NCBI RefSeq assembly: GCF_002161805.1
Contig: NZ_NFIP01000009.1
Location: 62,001 to 126,000 of the forward strand
Source: Collinsella sp. An307
GTDB lineage: Bacteria; Actinomycetota; Coriobacteriia; Coriobacteriales; Coriobacteriaceae
DNA: 64,000 bases
Reading direction: 5' to 3'
Under the pieces are notes generated by a model that was not told where the DNA came from, ran no database searches, and worked only from the letters and a program-made list of their open reading frames with translations. A program made the position numbers and the translations under genes. How positions within the stretch are numbered: position 1 is the first letter of the stretch; each line of letters opens with the position of its first letter. Of the stretch, positions 8,335 through 19,746 are shown one piece after another.

Positions 8335-8432
8335 TGCAATACCTGTCTATCGGTTGTTAACAGGAAGGCGCGCGTCCGTCGTGGGGCTCTCCCTCGCCCG
8401 GAAGCAGCCATTTGTGGGCGAAGTGTGTGTGC

Positions 8433-8457
8433 ATATCCGTTACAATAATGCGGATAT
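8433..8457 (+). promoter_or_regulatory. palindrome overlapping the probable ech promoter
   Basis: ATATCCG (8433-8439) and CGGATAT (8451-8457) are perfect inverted arms around TTACAATAATG, which contains a good -10 hexamer, TACAAT (8441-8446). The start codon of the hydrogenase operon is about 60 bases downstream. An operator wrapped around a -10 box suggests repression of the operon. No clear -35 was found at the expected distance. Confidence 0.5.
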
Positions 8458-8461
8458 TGGC

Positions 8462-8481
8462 TCGAGCGCAGAGGCGCTCGA
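8462..8481 (+). other. 5' leader hairpin of the ech operon
   Basis: TCGAGCGC (8462-8469) pairs with GCGCTCGA (8474-8481), a short strong stem directly after the presumed transcription start. It may stabilise the long hydrogenase mRNA. It does not resemble a riboswitch. Confidence 0.4.
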
Positions 8482-8506
8482 ATCTCAGGTCAAGAGGGGA
8501 AAAGCT

Positions 8507-11371
8507 ATGGGTCTCATCGCATTTCTCGTCGCCGCACCTCTGGTGGCCGCGGTTGCGCTCATGCTCTTTAGGAGCGAGAGCCAGCGCGCTGTCATCACCA
8601 TCGCGGCTGCGGGCATCACGGGCGTTGCGTCCGCGATCTTCGCATTCCAGCACCTGCTCGGCGGTTACACCGTGTACGAGCTCCCGCAGGAGACGAGCTT
8701 CATCATCACGCTTGTGATGACGGCGGTCGACATCGTGCTCTGCGCGGTGATCCTCTGGTTCTCGATCCGCTATAAGAACAAGCTCGCGCTTGTTATCGGC
8801 CTCGTGCAGACGGTCGGCGTCATCTACTTCGCCAACCTTACGCTTCCGCACGGCGCCGAGCACATGCTCACCACGCCCATCTACTTTGACCAGCTTTCGG
8901 TCATCATGGTGCTTATCGTCGGCCTCGTCGGCAGCGCCATCTGCGTGTATGCGCTGGGCTACATGAAGGACTTCCAGCATCATGAGCCGGCAGGTGCTCC
9001 TGACCGCCGCCATTTCTTCGCGGCCCTCATGTTCCTGTTCCTCTCGGCGATGTTTGTCATCGTCCTCTCCGATAACCTCGAGTGGATGTTCACGGGCTGG
9101 GAGATCACCACGGTGTGCTCCTTCCTCATGATCGGCTACACCCGCACGCCCGAGGCCATCAAGAACTCCTTCCGTCAGATTATCTTGAACATGATTGGCG
9201 GCATCGCGTTCCTCGTGGCGCTCCTCATCATCCAGATCTGGGGTCTGCCGCTGTCGCTCGCCTCGCTCACCACGGTCGCGAACTCCTACCTCTCGCCGAC
9301 CCTCGTGCTGCCCATCATGCTGCTCTCCATCGCCGGCCTCACCAAGGCCGCGCAGATGCCGTTCCACAGCTGGCTGCTCGGCGCCATGGTGGCGCCCACG
9401 CCCACCTCGGCTCTGCTCCACTCCTCGACGATGGTCAAGGCAGGCGTCTTCCTTCTGGTGAAGCTCGCGCCGCTGTACCTCGTCTACCCGGCCGCGTCCG
9501 CTATGGTCGTGTCCATCGGTGGCGTCACCTTCGCGCTCTGCTCGTTCATGGCCATCACCCAGAGCAACGCCAAGCGCGTGCTCGCCTACTCCACGATCGC
9601 CAACCTCGGCCTCATCTCCGCCTGCGCGGGCGTGGGTACCGCCGAGGCGGTCTGGGCGGCCATCTTCCTCATCATCTTCCACACCGTTTCCAAGTCCGTT
9701 CTGTTCCTGTGCGTCGGTACGGTCGAGCACCGCATCGGCAGCCGTAACATCGAGGATATGGACGGCCTCTTCAGCCGCCTGCCGCGCCTCACGCGCTTCA
9801 TGATGCTCGGCATCATGGGCATGTTCGTGGCGCCCTTCGGCATGCTCATCTCCAAGTGGGCAACGCTCGTCTCCTTCGCCGAGACCGGCAACATCCTGTT
9901 CCTGATCCTGCTCGCCTTTGGCTCCGCCGCGACCTTCTTCTTCTGGGCCAAGTGGCTCGGCAAGCTCGCCGGCGTGGCGCAGAAGGCCGAGAACGTCGAG
10001 GGCGGCGTGCACAAGAGCGAGTGGGCCGCCATCGGCTTCATCTCCGTGCTGCTGCTCGCCTGCTGCGTGCTGCTCCCGGTTATCTCCCAGGTCGTCGTCG
10101 GCCCGTACCTCGAGGGCGTGTACCAGGTGGTGCCGCAGCTCATTGGCGTTGACAACCTGCTCATCATGGCCGCTATCGTGGTCTTCATCGCCATCGTGCT
10201 TCTGACCCCGTGGGGCCGCGCCACCGACAAGCGCCGCGTTGCGGTCTACCTCGGCGGCACCTGCACCGACCCCGATGGTCGCCAGTATCACGGCTCCATG
10301 GGCCGCACCATGACTTCGTCCAAGCGCAACTGGTACATGGCTGATGTCTTCCCGGAGTCCCGCCTGACCCCGCTCGGCGTGATTCTCTGCACGAGCATCA
10401 TCATCATGGCCTTCGCCGCGTGCTTCATCCTTTCCGTGCCCTTCCTTGTGGGCGGCTCGTTCTTTGTGGAGCGTACGGTGCTGCTCGTTGGCCCCAACCT
10501 CATCGGCATCCTCATCGGCGTCGTGGTCTTTGCCGTCGTCGCCCCCGTCCTGGGCTGCCTGCTCGATGGTTGCGACCGCAAGATCTCTGCCCACATGCAG
10601 GGTCGCGTTGGTCCGCGCATCCTCCAGCCCTACTATGACGTGCGCAAGCTCCTCGGTAAGGAGGACGCGAGCGTGAACGCGGTCGACGAGGCCTACGTCA
10701 CCTGCGCACTCATCTTTGCCATCCTCGCGGGCGGCATGTTCATCTCCGGTTCGAACCTGCTTTTGTGCGTCTTCCTCGTGACGCTCGCCACGCTCTTTAT
10801 GGTCATTGCCGCCTACTCGGCGCGCAGCCCCTACGCCGACACCGGCGCCGACCGTGAGTGCCTGCAGGTTATGTCCTACGAGCCGATGCTCATGATCATG
10901 ACGGTGGGCTTCTTCACCGCAACGCAGTCCTTCGATGTGGCGCGCCTCTTCCAGATCGAGTCGCCCATCATCATCCCGCTGCTCCCGATCTTCCTTGGCC
11001 TGATGTTCATCTTGACCATTAAGCTCCGCAAGTCGCCGTTTGACCTCTCCTACAGCCACCATGCGCACCAGGAGATCGTCAAGGGCGTCACCACCGAGAT
11101 GACCGGTCGCACCCTCGCTAAGGTCGAGATCATGCACTGGTGCGAGAGCGTGCTCTTCCTCATGTGGGTCGGCATGTTCTTTGTCTGGGACAACCCCATC
11201 TCGATCGTGATCGCCATTGTGGCGGCGCTCGCAGCGTGGTTCTTCGAGGTCTTCATCGACAACAACTTCGCGCGTATGAAGTGGCAGAACTGCCTGTCCG
11301 GCGCGTGGCTCGTGGCGCTCGTGGTGGGCGTCGTGAACCTGTTCTACGTCCTCATCACCCCGTTCATCTAA
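8507..11371 (+). CDS. Ech-type hydrogenase membrane subunit: EchA (NuoL-like)-EchB (NuoH-like) fusion
   Basis: A 954-aa polytopic membrane protein. Residues 1 to about 610 are a NuoL/MrpA-type ion-translocating subunit, with the signature HSSTMVKAGVFLL and the preceding MPFHSWLLGAM. After a linker (SMGRTMTSSKRNWYM) come further membrane helices. From about residue 690 the protein is a NuoH/HycD-type subunit: GRVGPRILQPYYDVRKLLGKED, then the conserved acidic loop regions. In Methanosarcina Ech these are two genes, echA and echB; here one frame spans both without a stop. ATG at 8507 is chosen (GAGGGGAAAAGC upstream); the frame stays open further upstream but without support. Ech complexes couple H2 formation from ferredoxin to ion pumping; the direction here is unknown. 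Confidence 0.88.
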   Translation: MGLIAFLVAAPLVAAVALMLFRSESQRAVITIAAAGITGVASAIFAFQHLLGGYTVYELPQETSFIITLVMTAVDIVLCAVILWFSIRYKNKLALVIGLVQTVGVIYFANLTLPHGAEHMLTTPIYFDQLSVIMVLIVGLVGSAICVYALGYMKDFQHHEPAGAPDRRHFFAALMFLFLSAMFVIVLSDNLEWMFTGWEITTVCSFLMIGYTRTPEAIKNSFRQIILNMIGGIAFLVALLIIQIWGLPLSLASLTTVANSYLSPTLVLPIMLLSIAGLTKAAQMPFHSWLLGAMVAPTPTSALLHSSTMVKAGVFLLVKLAPLYLVYPAASAMVVSIGGVTFALCSFMAITQSNAKRVLAYSTIANLGLISACAGVGTAEAVWAAIFLIIFHTVSKSVLFLCVGTVEHRIGSRNIEDMDGLFSRLPRLTRFMMLGIMGMFVAPFGMLISKWATLVSFAETGNILFLILLAFGSAATFFFWAKWLGKLAGVAQKAENVEGGVHKSEWAAIGFISVLLLACCVLLPVISQVVVGPYLEGVYQVVPQLIGVDNLLIMAAIVVFIAIVLLTPWGRATDKRRVAVYLGGTCTDPDGRQYHGSMGRTMTSSKRNWYMADVFPESRLTPLGVILCTSIIIMAFAACFILSVPFLVGGSFFVERTVLLVGPNLIGILIGVVVFAVVAPVLGCLLDGCDRKISAHMQGRVGPRILQPYYDVRKLLGKEDASVNAVDEAYVTCALIFAILAGGMFISGSNLLLCVFLVTLATLFMVIAAYSARSPYADTGADRECLQVMSYEPMLMIMTVGFFTATQSFDVARLFQIESPIIIPLLPIFLGLMFILTIKLRKSPFDLSYSHHAHQEIVKGVTTEMTGRTLAKVEIMHWCESVLFLMWVGMFFVWDNPISIVIAIVAALAAWFFEVFIDNNFARMKWQNCLSGAWLVALVVGVVNLFYVLITPFI

Positions 11372-11383
11372 GGGAGCGCAGCT

Positions 11384-11827
11384 ATGAGCTATTCATCTAA
11401 GTCACCGTGGCTCATCCATTACGATGGGTCGAGCTGCAACGGATGCGACATCGAGGTGCTCGACTCGATGATGCCGCTTTACGACGTGGAGCGCTTTGGC
11501 ATCATCAACACGGGCAACCCCAAGCATGCCGACATCTTCCTCATCACGGGCGCCATCAACCACCAGAACGTCAACGTGGTGAAGCACATCTACGAGCAGA
11601 TGCTCGAGCCCAAGGTCGTTGTGGCCTGCGGCATCTGCGCCTGCACGGGCGGCGTCTTTAAGGAGGCCTACAACGTCATCGGCGGCGCCGACAAGGCGAT
11701 CCCGGTCGACGTGTACGCCCCCGGCTGCGCCGTGCGTCCCGAGACCATCATCGACGCGGTGCTCAAGGCCGTGAAGATCCTCGACGAGAAGGCCGCCAAG
11801 ATGGGCGCCTCCGAGAAGAACCGTTAA
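11384..11827 (+). CDS. echC: Ech hydrogenase small subunit (NuoB-like)
   Basis: 147-aa subunit that carries the proximal [4Fe-4S] cluster next to the NiFe site. The ligands are visible: CNGC in DGSSCNGCDIEVLDS, a cysteine in VACGICACTGG, and the last in YAPGCAVRPETI. It is homologous to NuoB and HycG, and its small size fits Ech. It starts 12 bases after the fused membrane gene with a GGGAG site, and 11 bases separate its stop from echD. Confidence 0.93.
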   Translation: MSYSSKSPWLIHYDGSSCNGCDIEVLDSMMPLYDVERFGIINTGNPKHADIFLITGAINHQNVNVVKHIYEQMLEPKVVVACGICACTGGVFKEAYNVIGGADKAIPVDVYAPGCAVRPETIIDAVLKAVKILDEKAAKMGASEKNR

Positions 11828-11838
11828 GGAGGGCGCGG

Positions 11839-12510
11839 ATGTATACCACCGAGTTCGTTGACGTCCCGCTGGGCGAGCTGCTCTATCGCGTGCAGACGCT
11901 CAAGCATCAGGGCTTCCGCTTTGTCCAGATGTGCGCCGAGACCACCGAGGCCGGCATCGACCTGCTGTACACGTTCTACGACGAGACGGTCGACAACGCC
12001 TACAACCTCTGCGTTTACGGTATCGACGAGAAGAGCGAGGTTCCCTCGATCCAGGAGCTCTACTTCGCGGCGTTTAGCTACGAGAACGAGACGCACGACC
12101 TGTTTGGCGTGCACTTCACCAACATGAAGCTCGACTTTGGCGGCAACTTCTTCAACGTCGCCGAAGAGGCTCCTATGACGATCATCACGCCCGAGATGAA
12201 GGCCGAGCGCGACAAGCTCGCCAAGCAGCGCGCCGCCGCTGCCGCCAAGGCCCGCAAGGCCGCGGAGGAGAAGCAGGCTGCCGAGGCCGACGCCGCCGCC
12301 GACGCCAAGGTCGCTGCCGTCGAGGCCGGCAAGAGCGCCGGCGCCGTTGCCGACAAGGCCGACCCGGCTGCCGCCGCTGGCGACGCTGCTGCCAAGGAGG
12401 CCGAGCGCGCCGCCAAGATGGAGGCGAAGCTCGCCGCCATGGACCCCGAGAAAGCCGCTAAGGTTCGCGCCGCGCTTGCTGCCAAGGCCGCGCAAAAGGA
12501 TGGTGAGTAA
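11839..12510 (+). CDS. echD: Ech hydrogenase NuoC-like subunit with Ala/Lys-rich C-terminal extension
   Basis: Residues 1 to about 115 resemble NuoC/HycE-N (the EchD family), ending in the conserved ENETHDLFGVHFTNMKLDFGGNFF region. The remaining 100 or so residues are a low-complexity Ala/Lys/Glu stretch predicted helical, not part of the standard subunit. The last 36 residues (from EAERAAKMEAKLAAM to the end) nearly repeat the last 36 of EchF. echE begins 2 bases after the stop. The extension may be a structural or docking helix; its role is unknown. Confidence 0.88.
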   Translation: MYTTEFVDVPLGELLYRVQTLKHQGFRFVQMCAETTEAGIDLLYTFYDETVDNAYNLCVYGIDEKSEVPSIQELYFAAFSYENETHDLFGVHFTNMKLDFGGNFFNVAEEAPMTIITPEMKAERDKLAKQRAAAAAKARKAAEEKQAAEADAAADAKVAAVEAGKSAGAVADKADPAAAAGDAAAKEAERAAKMEAKLAAMDPEKAAKVRAALAAKAAQKDGE

Positions 12511-12512
12511 GC

Positions 12513-13601
12513 ATGGCAACCCGTTCCGTCATTCCGTTTGGCCCGCAGCACCCCGTGCTGCCGGAGCCCATTCACCTCGACCTCGTTGTCGAGGATGAGA
12601 AGGTCGTTGAGGCCATCCCCCAGATCGGCTTCATCCACCGCGGCCTCGAGAAGCTCACGCAGAAGCGTGACTACAACCAGTTTGTCTACGTTGCCGAGCG
12701 TACCTGCGGCATCTGCAGCCACGGTCACGGCTACGGCTACGTGAGCGCCACCGAGAAGCTCCTCGGCATCGAGGTCCCGCGCCGCGTCGTCTACATCCGC
12801 GACATCCTGGAGGAGCTCACGCGCCTGCACTCGCACCTGCTGTGGCTCGGCCTTCTTGCCGACGCCTTTGGCTTCGAGGCGCTCTTCAACCACTGCTGGC
12901 GCCTGCGCGAGACCATTCTCGACATCTTCCAGCGCACTTGCGGCGGCCGCATCATCCTCTCCATCCTCGTGGTGGGCGGCCTGGCGCACGATATCGACGA
13001 CGCCGACCTCAAGGCCATCTGCGACAAGCTTGACAGCATCAAGCGCGATTACCTCGAGATCATGGACACCATGATGAACGACGTCTCGGTCAAGAGCCGT
13101 CTGTGCGGCGTGGGCGTCATCAGCTTTGAGGACGCCATGGAGCTCTCGATGGTTGGCCCCTTTGCCAAGGGTTCCGGCATCGAGCACGATATCCGTTCGA
13201 CCGGTTACGGCGCCTACGGCGACCTCGACCACTTCGAGCCCATCATCTCCACCGAGTGCGACTGCTACGCGCGCTGCAAGGTCCGCGCCGAGGAGGTCAT
13301 CCAGTCCATCGACATCATCAAGGAGCTCGTCTCCAAGATCCCGCACGATGGTATTGGTCAGAAGTCCAAGGCCAAGGTCGTCCCCGAGGGCCAGAGCCAC
13401 GTGCTCATCGAGCAGCCGCGCGGCGAGGCGTTCTACTACGTCCGCGGCAACGGCACCAAGTACCTCGACCGCTTCCGCCTGCGCACGCCCACCTCGCAGA
13501 ACCTGGGCGGCCTGGTGAAGGCGCTGCAGGGCGTCGACCTTGCTGACGTCCCGATGATCATCCTTACGATCGACCCGTGCATCAGCTGCACGGAAAGGTA
13601 G
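12513..13601 (+). CDS. echE: Ech hydrogenase large subunit ([NiFe] catalytic)
   Basis: 362-aa catalytic subunit. Both metal-binding motifs are intact: ERTCGICSHGH near the N-terminus (CxxC) and DPCISCTER at the C-terminus (CxxC). The four cysteines that hold the NiFe centre are therefore present, and this is a true hydrogenase rather than a complex I subunit. The N-terminus FGPQHPVLPEPIHLDL is typical of group 4. The sequence ends three residues after the last Cys, so, as in other Ech enzymes, there may be no C-terminal peptide for a maturation protease. HypA and HypB for nickel loading are encoded at 44661-45737. Confidence 0.95.
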   Translation: MATRSVIPFGPQHPVLPEPIHLDLVVEDEKVVEAIPQIGFIHRGLEKLTQKRDYNQFVYVAERTCGICSHGHGYGYVSATEKLLGIEVPRRVVYIRDILEELTRLHSHLLWLGLLADAFGFEALFNHCWRLRETILDIFQRTCGGRIILSILVVGGLAHDIDDADLKAICDKLDSIKRDYLEIMDTMMNDVSVKSRLCGVGVISFEDAMELSMVGPFAKGSGIEHDIRSTGYGAYGDLDHFEPIISTECDCYARCKVRAEEVIQSIDIIKELVSKIPHDGIGQKSKAKVVPEGQSHVLIEQPRGEAFYYVRGNGTKYLDRFRLRTPTSQNLGGLVKALQGVDLADVPMIILTIDPCISCTER

Positions 13602-13607
13602 GCCGGC

Positions 13608-14279
13608 ATGGGAACTTTCAAACTGGGCAAGATGACGCTCCGCTCGCTGTTCCACAAACCGGTGACGGTGCGTTACCCCTATGAGAAGCGCGACATCGAG
13701 AACCTCTTCCCGAGCATGCGCGGACATCTTGAGAACGATATCGACGCCTGCATCCTCTGCGGCATGTGTCAGCGCGCCTGCCCGGTGGGCGCCATCACGG
13801 TCGACCGCAAGGCCGGCGATTGGGTGCTCGACCCGTATATGTGCATCGCCTGCGCGAGCTGCACGCATGAGTGCCCCAAGAACTGCCTGACGATGGGCCT
13901 CTGGCCGACGGAGCCCGCCGAGGAGCTCTCGACCATTACGCTTCACAAGGACATGCCGGCAAAGCCCGCTGCCAAGGCTGGCGCCGCCGCCGGTGCCGCT
14001 GCCGCCGCGAAGCCCAAGAAGGAGCTCACCCCCGAGCAGCAGGCTCGCGTTGAGGCAGCCAAGAAGGCCGCCGCTGCCAAGAAGGCCGCGAAGGCTGCTG
14101 AGGCCGGCAAGGCTCCCGCTGAGGCGGAGAAGCCCGCTGAGGCTCCTGCCGCCGACGTGGATCCGGCGGAGGCCGAGCGCAAGGCCAAGATGGAGGCCAA
14201 GCTCGCTGCCATGGACCCCGAGAAGGCCGCCAAGGTGCGCGCCGCCCTCGAGGCTCGCGCCAAGAAGGACGCCGAGTAG
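13608..14279 (+). CDS. echF: Ech hydrogenase ferredoxin-like subunit (NuoI-like) with Ala/Lys-rich tail
   Basis: Residues 1 to about 110 carry two 4Fe-4S motifs, CILCGMCQRACPVG and CIACASCTHECPKNC, that pass electrons from ferredoxin to the NiFe site. The rest is a low-complexity Ala/Lys/Glu/Pro tail of about 110 residues. Its end (MEAKLAAMDPEKAAKVRAAL then a short Lys/Ala/Glu end) matches the end of EchD almost residue for residue. It is the last gene of the operon and a perfect 14-bp terminator follows. Confidence 0.93.
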   Translation: MGTFKLGKMTLRSLFHKPVTVRYPYEKRDIENLFPSMRGHLENDIDACILCGMCQRACPVGAITVDRKAGDWVLDPYMCIACASCTHECPKNCLTMGLWPTEPAEELSTITLHKDMPAKPAAKAGAAAGAAAAAKPKKELTPEQQARVEAAKKAAAAKKAAKAAEAGKAPAEAEKPAEAPAADVDPAEAERKAKMEAKLAAMDPEKAAKVRAALEARAKKDAE

Positions 14280-14475: not shown

Positions 14476-16341
14476 ATGTGCGGATTCGTCGGCTTTACCG
14501 GCCAGATAGATAACAGGCAGCAGGTTCTTGACGCCATGATGGACCGCATTGTCCATCGCGGCCCCGATATGGGCGGTAGCCATCTCACCGACGAGGTGGC
14601 CCTGGGCTTCCGCCGTCTTTCCATCTTGGACCTCTCCGAGGCAGGCGCTCAGCCCATGGGCAACGAGGACGGCAGCGTATTTGTGACGTTCAACGGAGAG
14701 ATCTACAACTTCCAGGAGCTGCGCGTCGAGCTCGAGGCCGCCGGCCATACCTTCCACTGCCATGCCGACACCGAGGTCCTCGTCCACGGCTACGAGGAGT
14801 GGGGCGAGAAACTCGTCGACCGTCTGCGCGGCATGTACGGCTTTGTCATCTACGATGGCCGCGCCCACAAGCTCTTTGGCGCGCGCGATATCTTTGGCAT
14901 CAAGCCGTTCTATTACTATCGCGCCGACGGCCGCGACGGCCGCCCCAACACGGGCGCCTTCCTCTTTGGTAGCGAGATCAAGAGCTTCCTCGAGCACCCC
15001 GATTTCGTGAAGGCCGTGAACCCCCAGGCGCTGCGCCCCTACCTCACGCTGCAGTTCCCCGCCACCGACGAGACGTTCTTCGCCGGTGTCTACAAGCTGC
15101 CCGCGGCCCACTGCTTCACCTATGACCTTGCGAGCGGTTCCATCGACATCCGCCGCTATTGGGACGCCGATTTCTCCGACGACAACTCCAAGACCTTTGA
15201 GGAGTACGTCGAGGCGTGCGACCAGGTGGTCCACGAGAGCGTGGCCGCGCACCGCATCGCCGACGTTAAGGTGGGTTCGTTCCTCTCTGGCGGTGTCGAC
15301 TCGAGCTACATTGCCGCCTGCCTCATGCCCGATACCACCTTCTCGGTGGGTTTTGATTACAAGGACTTCAACGAGACCAACTACGCCGCCGAGCTCTCCG
15401 ATAAGCTCGGCATCAAGAACGTCCGCAAGATGATTACGGCAGACGAGTTCTTTGACGTGCTCCCGCAGATCCAGTACCACATGGACGAGCCGCAGTCGAA
15501 CCTCTCGAGCGTACCTCTGTGGTTCTTGGCCGAGCTTGCCGCCAAGGACGTCACGGTTGTGCTTTCGGGCGAGGGCGCCGACGAGCTCTTTGCCGGCTAC
15601 GCATGGTACGAGGACACCCGCGAGGTCGCGCGCTACAAGCGCATCGTGCCGCGCGCCATCCGTCGCGCGCTGGGCCGCTTTGTGGAGAACAAGCACTACT
15701 TCAAGGGCAGGAACTTCCTGCTCAAGGGCGCCGAGATGCCCGAGAAGTGGTTTGTGGGCCAGGCGTTTGTCTACCGCGAGGACGAGGCAAACGACGTGCT
15801 CAAGCCCGCGTACGCCAAGGGCCCGGACGCCTTTGAGCTCTGCGCGCCGGTCTACGGGCGCGTGAAGAACTTCTGCGCCCTCTCCAAACAGCAATACCTC
15901 GACATGAACATGTGGCTGCCGGGCGACATCCTGCTCAAGGCGGACAAGATGTGCATGGCACACTCGCTCGAGCTGCGCGTGCCCTTCCTCGACAAGAAGG
16001 TCATGGAGTTTGCCGAGCACGTGCCCGCGCGCTTCCGCGTGAACGAGAACGGCAACAAGCAGGTGCTTCGCCATGCGGCGAACCGCTGCCTGCCCGACGA
16101 GTGGGCGACGCGCCCCAAGAAGGGCTTCCCCGTGCCGCTCAAGTTCTGGCTGCGCGAGCAGAAGTACTACGACTACGTGAAGGAGTACTTCACAGCTCCG
16201 TGGGCGTCGGAGTTCTTCGATACGAGCAAGCTCATGCAGATGCTCGACGATCACTTTGAGGGTCGCGCACTCAACCAGCGCAAGATCTATACCGCGCTCA
16301 CGTTCCTCATCTGGTACAAGCGCTACTTTATCGACGAGTAA
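14476..16341 (+). CDS. asnB: glutamine-dependent asparagine synthase-type amidotransferase
   Basis: 621-aa two-domain enzyme. The N-terminal class II glutaminase starts MCGFVGFTG, with Cys2 the nucleophile after Met removal. The C-terminal ATP pyrophosphatase domain shows the loop SFLSGGVDSSYIAACL and later SGEGADELFAGYAWY. It could make asparagine. AsnB paralogues such as LtsA of Corynebacterium instead amidate the peptidoglycan stem peptide, and the two murE genes downstream on the same strand make that role worth considering. Start and length fit the family. Confidence 0.9.
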   Translation: MCGFVGFTGQIDNRQQVLDAMMDRIVHRGPDMGGSHLTDEVALGFRRLSILDLSEAGAQPMGNEDGSVFVTFNGEIYNFQELRVELEAAGHTFHCHADTEVLVHGYEEWGEKLVDRLRGMYGFVIYDGRAHKLFGARDIFGIKPFYYYRADGRDGRPNTGAFLFGSEIKSFLEHPDFVKAVNPQALRPYLTLQFPATDETFFAGVYKLPAAHCFTYDLASGSIDIRRYWDADFSDDNSKTFEEYVEACDQVVHESVAAHRIADVKVGSFLSGGVDSSYIAACLMPDTTFSVGFDYKDFNETNYAAELSDKLGIKNVRKMITADEFFDVLPQIQYHMDEPQSNLSSVPLWFLAELAAKDVTVVLSGEGADELFAGYAWYEDTREVARYKRIVPRAIRRALGRFVENKHYFKGRNFLLKGAEMPEKWFVGQAFVYREDEANDVLKPAYAKGPDAFELCAPVYGRVKNFCALSKQQYLDMNMWLPGDILLKADKMCMAHSLELRVPFLDKKVMEFAEHVPARFRVNENGNKQVLRHAANRCLPDEWATRPKKGFPVPLKFWLREQKYYDYVKEYFTAPWASEFFDTSKLMQMLDDHFEGRALNQRKIYTALTFLIWYKRYFIDE

Positions 16342-16368: not shown

Positions 16369-16503
16369 TGTGGTGATGTGCGGAACAATCGATGTACGGA
16401 TGCCATTCATGCGGTCGGGATACATTTCCGGCCGCATACTTCTATGTATAGCGAGGTCGCGTCCTGTCCGCGTTTCATGGTCAACAGCCATCTGGAGGCT
16501 ACC

Positions 16504-18111
16504 ATGGGTGAGCATCTGCCTGCTATCGATCGTTTTCCCGCCGTCTCGCTGCGTGCGGCCGCTTCCCTTCTTGGTGAGGGAGGCATGGGGGCACGCGTTT
16601 GTGGCGACGAAGGTACCGAGGTGCACGGGATGGCCATTGACTCGCGTGAGGTCTCCCCGGGCAACCTCTTTGTTTGCAAGGGCGCCGCGTTTTGTCCCGC
16701 GTTTCTTGCGGATGCCGTGCGCCACGGCGCCGCTGCGTATCTCTGTGAGGACGATGAGCGGGCCGAGGAGCTCTCCGCCCAAGCACCGGGCGTACCCTGC
16801 ATCGTAGTGTATCAGGGGAAGGTCCGCCGTGCCATGGCGCTCGTGGCGCCGCTCATCTACATGCATCCTGAGCATGACCTCACCATTGTGGGTATCACGG
16901 GTACCAAGGGAAAGTCGACCGTTGTCTACATGCTGCGCTCCATCCTGCGCGCGGCGGGCGTGACGCCGTCCATCTTGGGCTCGATTGAGACGGACGACGG
17001 CGTGTGCGCGTTTGAGAGCCACAACACTACACCCGAGGCACCCGACCTGTGGCTGCATCTGCGCAACACGGTGGATGCCGGGCGAGACGTGATGCTCATG
17101 GAGGTGTCGAGCCAGGGTCTCAAGTACGGCCGCGTGCTCGGTGTTCCCTTTGAAATCGCCTGCTTTTTGAACATCGGACGCGACCATATCTCGCCCATCG
17201 AACATCCCACGTTTGAGGACTACTTCCAGAGCAAGCTGCGTATCTTTGAGCAGTGCGAAACCGCCGTGGTGAACCTCGATACCGAGCGCGTAGAGGAGGT
17301 ACTTGCTGCTGCATCCGCCTCGGCAAAGCGGCTGGTAACCCTGCACACCGATCATGCACCCGCGGTCTCGGCTGAGGGCTCGGCGGCGTCCGCGCGCGGT
17401 TGCAATGCCGACTTTTGCGCAACTGAAATTGAGACGGTTGACGGGGGCATCGCCTTCACGGTGGAGGCGCGCGGTGCGGCGGGCACGATGCGCACGACGC
17501 GCCATGACATCGTGCTTGGCATGACGGGCTTCTTCAACGTCGACAACGCGCTTGCCGCCTGTGCCATCGCCCGCCTGATGGGATTTGACTACGATGCCAT
17601 CGCCCGCGGCCTCGCACATGTTCGCGTCCCCGGGCGCATGGAGCTCGTGAGCTCGGGCGACGGGCATGTGCTCGCCATTGTCGATTACGCGCACAACGAA
17701 CTTTCCTTTGACGCGCTGTTCTCGTCGGTCAAGCGCCAGTATCCAGATCGCCGGGTCATTGCGGTCTTTGGTGCGCCGGGCGATAAGGCGCAAGAGCGCC
17801 GCAGCACCTTGCCGCGCGTTGCCGGCGCCTATGCTGACCTGCTCATATACACCGAGGAAGACCCCGCGCACGAGGCGGTGGAGGACATCTGCGCCGAGCT
17901 TGCGGCAAACACGCCGGCAGGTGTTGCCTACAAGATAATCCCCGACCGCGAGGAGGCGGTCGCGCACGCTCTGCACGCGGCCCTTGCCGACGAGCGGCCC
18001 TCGGCCGTGCTCTTGCTTGCCAAGGGGGACGAGACGCGCCAGCACCGTGGCGACAGCTATCCTGAGGTAAAAAGCGATTTGAGTCTTGCCCGCGAGATTC
18101 TACGGGGGTAA
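16504..18111 (+). CDS. MurE-family UDP-MurNAc-peptide ligase, copy 1
   Basis: 535-aa Mur ligase. The N-terminal domain carries the substrate-recognition stretch GMAIDSREVSPGNLFVCKGAAF, the ATP loop is VGITGTKGKSTVVYM, and the central domain has HNTTPEAPDLW and VMLMEVSSQGLK. The C-terminal domain reads IYTEEDPAHEAVEDI where diaminopimelate-adding MurE enzymes have DNPR, so it should add another diamino acid such as lysine or ornithine, or act elsewhere in wall synthesis. ATG at 16504 has a GGAGG site (CTGGAGGCTACC); longer openings lack one. A second paralogue follows directly. Confidence 0.85.
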   Translation: MGEHLPAIDRFPAVSLRAAASLLGEGGMGARVCGDEGTEVHGMAIDSREVSPGNLFVCKGAAFCPAFLADAVRHGAAAYLCEDDERAEELSAQAPGVPCIVVYQGKVRRAMALVAPLIYMHPEHDLTIVGITGTKGKSTVVYMLRSILRAAGVTPSILGSIETDDGVCAFESHNTTPEAPDLWLHLRNTVDAGRDVMLMEVSSQGLKYGRVLGVPFEIACFLNIGRDHISPIEHPTFEDYFQSKLRIFEQCETAVVNLDTERVEEVLAAASASAKRLVTLHTDHAPAVSAEGSAASARGCNADFCATEIETVDGGIAFTVEARGAAGTMRTTRHDIVLGMTGFFNVDNALAACAIARLMGFDYDAIARGLAHVRVPGRMELVSSGDGHVLAIVDYAHNELSFDALFSSVKRQYPDRRVIAVFGAPGDKAQERRSTLPRVAGAYADLLIYTEEDPAHEAVEDICAELAANTPAGVAYKIIPDREEAVAHALHAALADERPSAVLLLAKGDETRQHRGDSYPEVKSDLSLAREILRG

Positions 18112-18228
18112 GGTAGCTCGCGAAGGTGTTTCTGGCTACCCGCTTGGCGCGCAATAGCTGCAGCGTCAGGCGCTGTGCGGCCGCAACGGCTGCGGCGTAT
18201 TGCCGGCAGACAAGAGGGGAGAGGCGCT

Positions 18229-19746
18229 GTGCCCGCATCTCAAAGAGTCCGCTCGCTGCGTGATTACCTAAAGATCCTCCGCGCGTACGACGCGCTGGTG
18301 ACAGAGCCCCCGGCGGGTCCGATTCTCGCCGATTTGCCCATCCGCTGGGTTTCGTGCGACTCCCATGCGGTAAAGCCCGGCACGCTCTTTATCTGCAAAG
18401 GCGCCTCCTTTAAGCGCGACTACCTGCTCGATGCCATCGAGGCGGGTGCGGTTGCCTACATCTCCGAGGTCGACTATGGGGTCAATATCCCCTTCATTCA
18501 TGCGTGCGATATCAGGCGTGCCCTCGGCATCCTTTCCGACGCAGCGTGGGACCACCCCTCGGGCCGCATCAAGGTCTGTGCGTTCACGGGCACCAAGGGC
18601 AAGACCACGAGCGTGTATTACCTGCGGAGCATTCTTGCGGCGCGCGCCAAGCGCACGGGTGCGCCCGAGGCCGCGTTCATTACCGGCGTGGAGTACGACG
18701 ACGGCGCGGAGCGCGGCGAGAGCGTGCTTACCACGCCCGAGGCGCCCGAACTCGAGCGGCGCCTTGCCAATGCGGTCTTTGCGGACCGCGACATCTTTGT
18801 GATGGAGGCGTCGAGCCAGGCCCTTAAGCTCCACCGCACGCTCGGCGTGGAGTTTGCCGTGGGCGCGTTTACCAACTTTGGCGAGGACCATATCTCGCCC
18901 ATCGAGCACCCGACGGTCGAGGACTACCTCGCAAGCAAGCTCATGCTCTTCCGCAACTGCCGTACCGCCGTGGTGAACCTCGACATGCAGGTAGCCCCGC
19001 AGGTGCTTGAGGCGGCGCAGTCCTGCGAGCGCGTGCTGACCTATTCGCTTGAGAACGATGCCGCCGATGTGGTGCTCACGCGCTGGGAGCGCGCGGGCTC
19101 GGGCATTTCCTTTACGGTCCGCACGCCGCGCTTTACCTGCGACGTTTACCTCCCCACCCCTGCTCACTTCAACCTTGCCAATGCGCTCGGGGCTATCTCG
19201 TGCGCAGAGGCGCTCGGCGTGGATGCTGAGGATATCGTCCAGGGTCTTGCCGAGGTTCGCGTCTCTGGTCGTATGGAGGTCTACCCGAGTGCGTCGGGCG
19301 AGATTGTGGGCGTGGTCGATTACGCGCACAACGGCATGAGCCTCACGGCGCTGCTTGGCGAGATGCGGGAGAGTTACCCCGACCGCGAGCTTACGGTGGT
19401 CTTTGGAGCCACCGGCGGCAAGGGCGTCGATCGTCGCGACACGATGGGCGAGGCAGCCGGCAAGCTCGCCGACCGCATCATCATCACGGAGGACGACCCC
19501 GGCCCCGAGGACCCGGCGGTCATCTGCGACGCTATCGCCCGCGCGGTGAGCGCACAGGGTCATAACAGGTGGGAGATTGTGCTCGATCGTCCTCAGGCTA
19601 TCGTGCGTGCCGTGGAAGGTGCAAAGCGCCCGGCCGTTGTAGTGGTGACCGGCAAGGGCAACGATGCCTTTATGCTGCGCCATGACGTGCGCGAGCCCTA
19701 CGAGCCGGACGGTAAGCAGCTCGCGCGGCTTTTGGCCGAGGCATAG
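18229..19746 (+). CDS. murE: MurE-family UDP-MurNAc-peptide ligase, copy 2
   Basis: 505-aa paralogue of the preceding gene with the same order of motifs: VSCDSHAVKPGTLFICKGASF, the P-loop FTGTKGKTTSVYYL, TTPEAPELE, VMEASSQALKLHRTLG and GVVDYAHNGMSL. At the substrate motif it has ITEDDPGPEDPAVICDAI, again not DNPR. GTG at 18229 is chosen because GAGGGGAGAGG precedes it; the in-frame ATG further upstream at 18175 has no ribosome site. Copy 2 keeps the DP-x-x-EDP pattern seen in non-DAP MurE enzymes more fully, so it is the likelier housekeeping MurE. The division of labour is unknown. Confidence 0.85.
   Translation: MPASQRVRSLRDYLKILRAYDALVTEPPAGPILADLPIRWVSCDSHAVKPGTLFICKGASFKRDYLLDAIEAGAVAYISEVDYGVNIPFIHACDIRRALGILSDAAWDHPSGRIKVCAFTGTKGKTTSVYYLRSILAARAKRTGAPEAAFITGVEYDDGAERGESVLTTPEAPELERRLANAVFADRDIFVMEASSQALKLHRTLGVEFAVGAFTNFGEDHISPIEHPTVEDYLASKLMLFRNCRTAVVNLDMQVAPQVLEAAQSCERVLTYSLENDAADVVLTRWERAGSGISFTVRTPRFTCDVYLPTPAHFNLANALGAISCAEALGVDAEDIVQGLAEVRVSGRMEVYPSASGEIVGVVDYAHNGMSLTALLGEMRESYPDRELTVVFGATGGKGVDRRDTMGEAAGKLADRIIITEDDPGPEDPAVICDAIARAVSAQGHNRWEIVLDRPQAIVRAVEGAKRPAVVVVTGKGNDAFMLRHDVREPYEPDGKQLARLLAEA

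Follow-up and report, generated by a model that had tools for sequence, protein, structure and literature searches.

Why should two different subunits of one hydrogenase end in the same Ala/Lys-rich tail? The question is raised by an operon in a 64,000-nucleotide stretch of the Collinsella sp. An307 genome (hereafter, the window), for which ORF translations and Pfam give the gene order echAB (a single ORF), echC, echD, echE and echF, all on the + strand. The echA and echB homologues share the ORF at 8354..11371, with Proton_antipo_M over residues 216-501 and NADHdh over residues 700-976 (Pfam, numbered from 8423). echC (11384..11827, Oxidored_q6) encodes the small subunit, which bears no copy of the tail module described below. 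echD (11839..12510) combines a NuoC/30-kDa-like core, residues 1 to ~115 (Complex1_30kDa at residues 14-95, E 6.9e-8), with a C-terminal extension. echE (12513..13601) encodes the [NiFe]-hydrogenase large subunit, whose two CxxC pairs are RTCGIC, close to the N-terminus, and DPCISC, at the C-terminus; its nearest solved chain is the MBH large subunit 6cfw_L (E 7.8e-71). echF (13608..14279) joins a 2x[4Fe-4S] core, residues 1 to ~105 (Fer4/Fer4_7), to a second extension; its eight cysteines are invariant across 55 aligned sequences, and across 105 residues the core does not differ from that of an uncultured Collinsella sp.

The large-subunit CxxC nickel ligands, the two-[4Fe-4S] EchF and the antiporter-like and NuoH-like subunits place the complex with Ech, the group 4 [NiFe]-hydrogenase EchABCDEF, which it resembles in gene order, in domains, in both CxxC pairs of EchE and in the eight cysteines of EchF. 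Foldseek searches with the EchF and EchD models found NuoI-like and NuoC-like cores among the matches listed. Unlike in Ech, a single ORF of the window encodes the homologues of EchA and EchB, and both EchD and EchF are extended. The 982-1005 aa ORF is a fusion of an EchA-like (antiporter) and an EchB-like (NuoH) subunit that are usually separate. Downstream of the operon lie what we take to be an asparagine-synthetase-like ORF (14476-16341) and then two adjacent, presumably Mur-ligase-like ORFs (16378-18111 and 18175-19746), head to tail and both with GTKGK(S/T).

At 223 aa apiece, EchD and EchF exceed their NuoC-like and 2x[4Fe-4S] cores by ~107 aa, which bears out the initial annotation of added C-terminal extensions of about 100 residues. 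The near-identity it reported for the two ends is likewise seen, as an 86% match over 35 aa, and the DNA similarity it placed at 12405-12510 and 14172-14279 amounts to 82% over 101 nt (12376-12476 versus 14148-14248), so that its coordinates were close. What the ends have in common is a 29-residue module, consensus EAKLAxMDPEKAAKVRAALxAK, carried on Ala/Lys-rich tethers. In EchD the tether spans residues 116-191 (12184..12411, +) and the module residues 192-220 (12412..12498, +; AKMEAKLAAMDPEKAAKVRAALAAKAAQK); in EchF they span residues 116-192 (13953..14183, +) and 193-221 (14184..14270, +; AKMEAKLAAMDPEKAAKVRAALEARAKKD). Both copies are defined by a position matrix, a profile and AlphaFold2. 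EchC was considered as the source of the module and rejected: its C-terminus in the window, LDEKAAKMGA, is similar for a few residues, and the EchC C-termini of relatives, inspected by eye, are without the module.

A tail of this composition invites the explanation that it arose by low-complexity drift, or by a recent DNA duplication within the operon, and the 82% DNA identity could be read in the same way. A position matrix of 29 columns, run over 124 proteins, found 87 module copies, of which 75 score 46-73 and the lowest scores 20. Composition-preserving shuffles of the same tails (17,800 in total, 200 for each of the 89 proteins with long enough tails) scored no higher than 3.7, and reversed tails no higher than 1.4. 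With an HMMER profile used without composition correction, the shuffles reached a maximum of 17.3 bits (99% point, 11), clear copies scored roughly 35-70 bits, and the cut applied later, 25 bits, is higher than every shuffle. As for duplication, the two tails in the window use the same codon at 15 of 23 identical-residue positions, against 61% expected from the codon usage of the operon; their DNA is alike because the protein sequence is shared and codon usage does the rest, and no special explanation is needed. Drift is ruled out by the shuffle control together with conservation across genomes and two families, and drift and duplication together retain next to no probability. The random presence in unrelated proteins that the initial annotation had named as the sign of drift did not occur; the tail is specific and selected. 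A known enzyme carries a new module that is both real and specific.

How far does the module extend? In its own genome it is carried by EchD and EchF only (the third-best match, E = 0.53, lies inside a GTPase-like ORF), and the wider search that the initial annotation had proposed, through other Coriobacteriia, found it conserved in Coriobacteriales. Every one of the 44 genomes of the window's family that have this Ech has the tail, and none of the eight without this Ech does (37-aa query); one of the 44 holds a degenerate copy only (E 0.004). The module is found in 104 of 296 genomes of the class when two different queries are combined, and in the search of the phylum (296 genomes) all strong matches fall within the order, with four outside it at E 0.0047-0.0074. 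When 84,980 species genomes were scanned with the profile, 228 pattern stretches came up. Of these, 73 encode a relative, and they lie at 71 confirmed loci, assigned by their cores to EchD (59) or EchF (11), the last being unreadable and unplaced because a run of N interrupts it. By their record titles these loci belong to Coriobacteriia (Collinsella, Slackia, Adlercreutzia, Eggerthella, Gordonibacter, Senegalimassilia and others), except for a few whose titles give no class.

Across 60 genomes of one family, Eggerthellaceae by record titles, every profile match at E <= 1e-3 falls in EchD, EchF or, in five genomes (G223, G294, G168, G203 and G242), NfnA. A weak match outside Ech and Nfn (G213:C16, E 0.003) is antisense to a chloride-channel-like ORF and was taken as chance; G052 has a similar weak match. 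A plasmid collection searched with the tail gave no match, and neither window tail hit a family in Pfam (E up to 1) or NCBIfam (E up to 0.1). The PDB sequences matched by the profile, at E 0.025 or weaker, were a designed helical protein and others with short, partial matches, and all were set aside as chance. A full-text literature search, whose reach mostly excludes subscription papers, returned no title on such a tail. The module is thus specific to the Ech hydrogenase of Coriobacteriales and, in one clade, to NfnA.

Its sequence is also the most conserved part of the extension. Mean pairwise identity over 903 pairs from 43 rows is 75% for the module and 49.5% for the EchD core, so constraint is stronger on the module than on the core; the linker stands at 53% (182 pairs only). 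Among 108 copies, Pro12 and Glu13 are each kept in 102, Lys14 in 103 (the five others have Arg), Lys/Arg17 in 107 and Arg/Lys19 in 106; the net charge of the module runs from -2 to +5, with a mean of +2. AlphaFold2 models, built on alignments of 54 EchD and 55 EchF sequences, give the EchD core (residues 1-100) block pLDDT of 92-98, followed by a long Ala/Lys helix (118-165), a loose stretch at 169-178 with pLDDT <50, and module helices at 182-200 and 203-219 (block pLDDT 77-85). In EchF, the tether forms one helix (142-165) and is loose at 168-180 (pLDDT <50), and the module helices lie at 186-201 and 204-222, with block pLDDT of 94-96 over residues 191-220. Both models thus break at Met-Asp-Pro, after stretches of pLDDT <50, and we infer that the two predicted helices probably fold back as a hairpin. 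The EchF helix at residues ~139-165 (ELTPEQQARVEAARKAAAAKKAAKA) is an extra element common to most EchF in the window's family, module-less ones included; it is weakly module-like and scores under the cut used.

Basic, Ala-rich and helical sequences can also suggest an amphipathic helix that binds the membrane. The helices of the window have a hydrophobic moment of only 0.19-0.40 and a mean hydrophobicity below zero, and Lys14 is seldom exchanged with Arg (103 K, 5 R), which makes membrane binding highly improbable.

The tethers are long (median 56 residues in EchD and 80 in EchF), and EchD carries one to five copies of the module, up to five in tandem in Eggerthellaceae; the commonest spacing of tandem copies is 38 residues (10 of 30 intervals). 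The module is a helical element, by its predicted fold, on a loose tether and portable between proteins, as is expected of a docking module. Docking domains and peptide docking tails as a class likewise have a short helical element on a flexible tether, in tandem copies. This module differs from those described in having no Pfam or NCBIfam family and no PDB sequence match of note.

The carriers outside Ech are five FAD/NAD proteins, sulfide/dihydroorotate-dehydrogenase-like and each followed by a GltA-like partner (L123-L127). We take the carriers and their partners to be NfnA and NfnB; the library names NF004862 and TIGR01316 rest on a scan of both proteins at L126 and of NfnA alone at L123. 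The module stands at the C-terminus of NfnA in five of the 33 loci read (126 genomes have a match) and is missing from the other 28. The five NfnA with the module are roughly 70 to 120 residues longer than their neighbours' NfnA. On the EchE tree (81 genomes, IQ-TREE; the bootstrap has not settled and 21 forks are open), their genomes all fall within a single clade of 12, in which NfnA was otherwise matched only in G263, whose NfnA is without the module. The simplest reading of this pattern would be a single gain on NfnA. Elsewhere, G102 has an NfnA with a different, module-free C-terminal extension of ~125 residues.

NfnAB, a ferredoxin:NADP oxidoreductase, shares the module at the NfnA C-terminus in some Eggerthellaceae, but it is a different enzyme and most of the NfnA read do without. 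In the genome of the window, the NfnA match is a 284-aa open frame in which the module profile finds no copy. E. coli K-12 RsxC/RnfC (rsxC, b1629) offers a further comparison: it too is a subunit of an electron-transfer complex with Ala/Lys-rich C-terminal repeats, and these start with Asp-Pro-x-Lys-Ala-Ala (VDPRKAAVEAAIARAKARK). We rejected the repeats as homologues, the best module-profile score being 4.8 bits, matched by 21 of 500 shuffles, with no significant hit under bias correction; unlike the E. coli protein, the RnfC of the window's genome has no such tail. Since most of the NfnA read are without the module, and the profile search of the window's genome gave neither a third carrier nor, in RnfC, a tail to match, the module does not mark ferredoxin enzymes in general.

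Could the two tails simply hold each other? The initial annotation had proposed that they form paired helices tethering the peripheral arm, or that they dock a ferredoxin or partner enzyme. An intramolecular brace suits the window, where the tails stand side by side, and among the 76 complexes in which both subunits are readable, 14 have the module on both. Yet 46 carry it on EchD only and three on EchF only, 13 have neither, and exactly one module is present in 29 of the 76. With single-module complexes this frequent, tail-tail pairing within one complex is not the general role of the module; the pairing half of the proposal falls as a general function, and the docking half fits the portability between EchD, EchF and NfnA. 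A brace is contradicted as a general role and is very unlikely. These counts leave out five of the 81 genomes, namely G189 and G231 (N runs in EchD), G165 and G207 (contig ends) and G133 (best EchF match on the wrong side); they include doubtful EchF copies of 26-30 bits and lacking Asp-Pro in G072, G162 and G058, and they do not include the EchF of G271 (17 bits), though its residues resemble its own EchD.

The 13 complexes that have no module above 25 bits indicate that the module is dispensable. Its absence from some lineages and its placement at the extreme C-termini would agree with a tail that aids folding, maturation, stability or solubility of the peripheral subunits, with no redox partner involved. 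The conservation of Pro12, Glu13, Lys14 and Arg19 exceeds what a solubility tail needs, however, and the presence of the module on NfnA, which has no nickel site, speaks against a part in hydrogenase maturation. An assembly role is accordingly quite unlikely.

The history of the module adds a further line of evidence. On the EchE tree, EchD has no module in the deepest branches and carries it throughout most of the two families branching next, which makes EchD, as far as the tree goes, the probable ancestral carrier. The initial annotation held that standard EchD and EchF lack the tail; this is true of EchD in the deepest Ech branches sampled (five of five: G225, G022, G293, G295 and G256) and not of most EchD in the order. 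EchF copies occur in at least four lineages: the window clade (g1, g2 and g4), G249 with three copies, G271/G275, and G265/G283/G219. G231 has two EchF copies and an EchD interrupted by N, and three Slackia-like loci (L254, L255 and L259) have the module on another EchF form. When EchF copies are compared with 60 EchD proteins, the best match is the genome's own for G249 (first copy), G275 and G265, and such pairs share oddities (MPPEKAAKF in G249, AAKTAGLDP in G265); for the remaining EchF copies the own EchD ranks 1 to 27, in the window 15. EchF apparently gained the module several times, through copying from its own EchD or conversion between the two in some lineages. Within nine genomes of the window clade, EchD-EchF DNA identity is 0.836, versus 0.791 between genomes (permutation p ~5e-5), an excess carried by the g2 genomes; the window's genome has none (0.78 to itself, a mean of 0.79 to the others). 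Some genomes of genus g3, such as G243 and G148, have a diverged Ech with 68-69% EchE identity, a long branch and a 113-aa EchF, and several members of this group have a second large-subunit-like ORF of ~591 aa.

Such likeness within genomes is also what co-adapted partners would show. Hairpins of different complexes might associate with each other as four-helix bundles, clustering Ech, and Nfn where NfnA has the module, with no separate receptor. Carriage by Ech and Nfn only, the lineage-specific residues shared by EchF and EchD in G249, G275 and G265, and the higher DNA identity within genomes all agree with this, and self-association of hairpins would account for most of the facts that docking explains. 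Copying or conversion within a lineage, or adaptation to one shared receptor, gives the same pattern, however, and the g2 genomes drive it, with the genome of the window showing no excess. Homotypic association is unlikely.

The explanation that we favour, tentatively, is that the tail is a tethered docking module for a putative partner common to Ech and Nfn. A location on EchD, EchF or NfnA, one to five copies and a loose arm all fit a docking element. Under this proposal the 29-residue module (helix, Met-Asp-Pro break, helix), on the C-terminal tether of EchD and here also of EchF, would project as a hairpin from the peripheral arm, next to the iron-sulfur subunit EchF, and would engage a soluble partner, most simply ferredoxin or a ferredoxin-linked enzyme. 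Binding would raise the local concentration of the partner, and extra copies would serve as extra binding sites. The near-invariant Lys14, Lys/Arg17 and Arg19 may form the contacts, while hydrophobic positions 3, 7, 10, 18 and 22 would hold the hairpin together. The constant basic residues suggest an acidic partner, and ferredoxin would be the simplest one common to Ech and Nfn; a net charge ranging from -2 to +5 makes a purely electrostatic catch of ferredoxin a weak proposition. More speculatively, and in our estimate unlikely, the hairpin could be a portable address tag that gathers ferredoxin-linked enzymes, Ech and, in one Eggerthellaceae clade, the bifurcating Nfn, at a common partner. 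If so, low-potential electrons would be passed on within the cluster and not by free diffusion.

What distinguishes this module is that it is conserved and order-specific, that it sits on two Ech subunits and has been repeatedly copied between neighbouring genes, and that in one clade it stands on an unlinked ferredoxin enzyme. According to a 2025 survey, the group 4e hydrogenases of gut bacteria need to be characterised better (PMC12578642). The module offers a direct handle on the gut Ech, as a 29-residue peptide can be used to fish for the partner. A partner that proved to be a ferredoxin or some other enzyme would reveal the route by which Ech receives its electrons in Collinsella and Eggerthella relatives.
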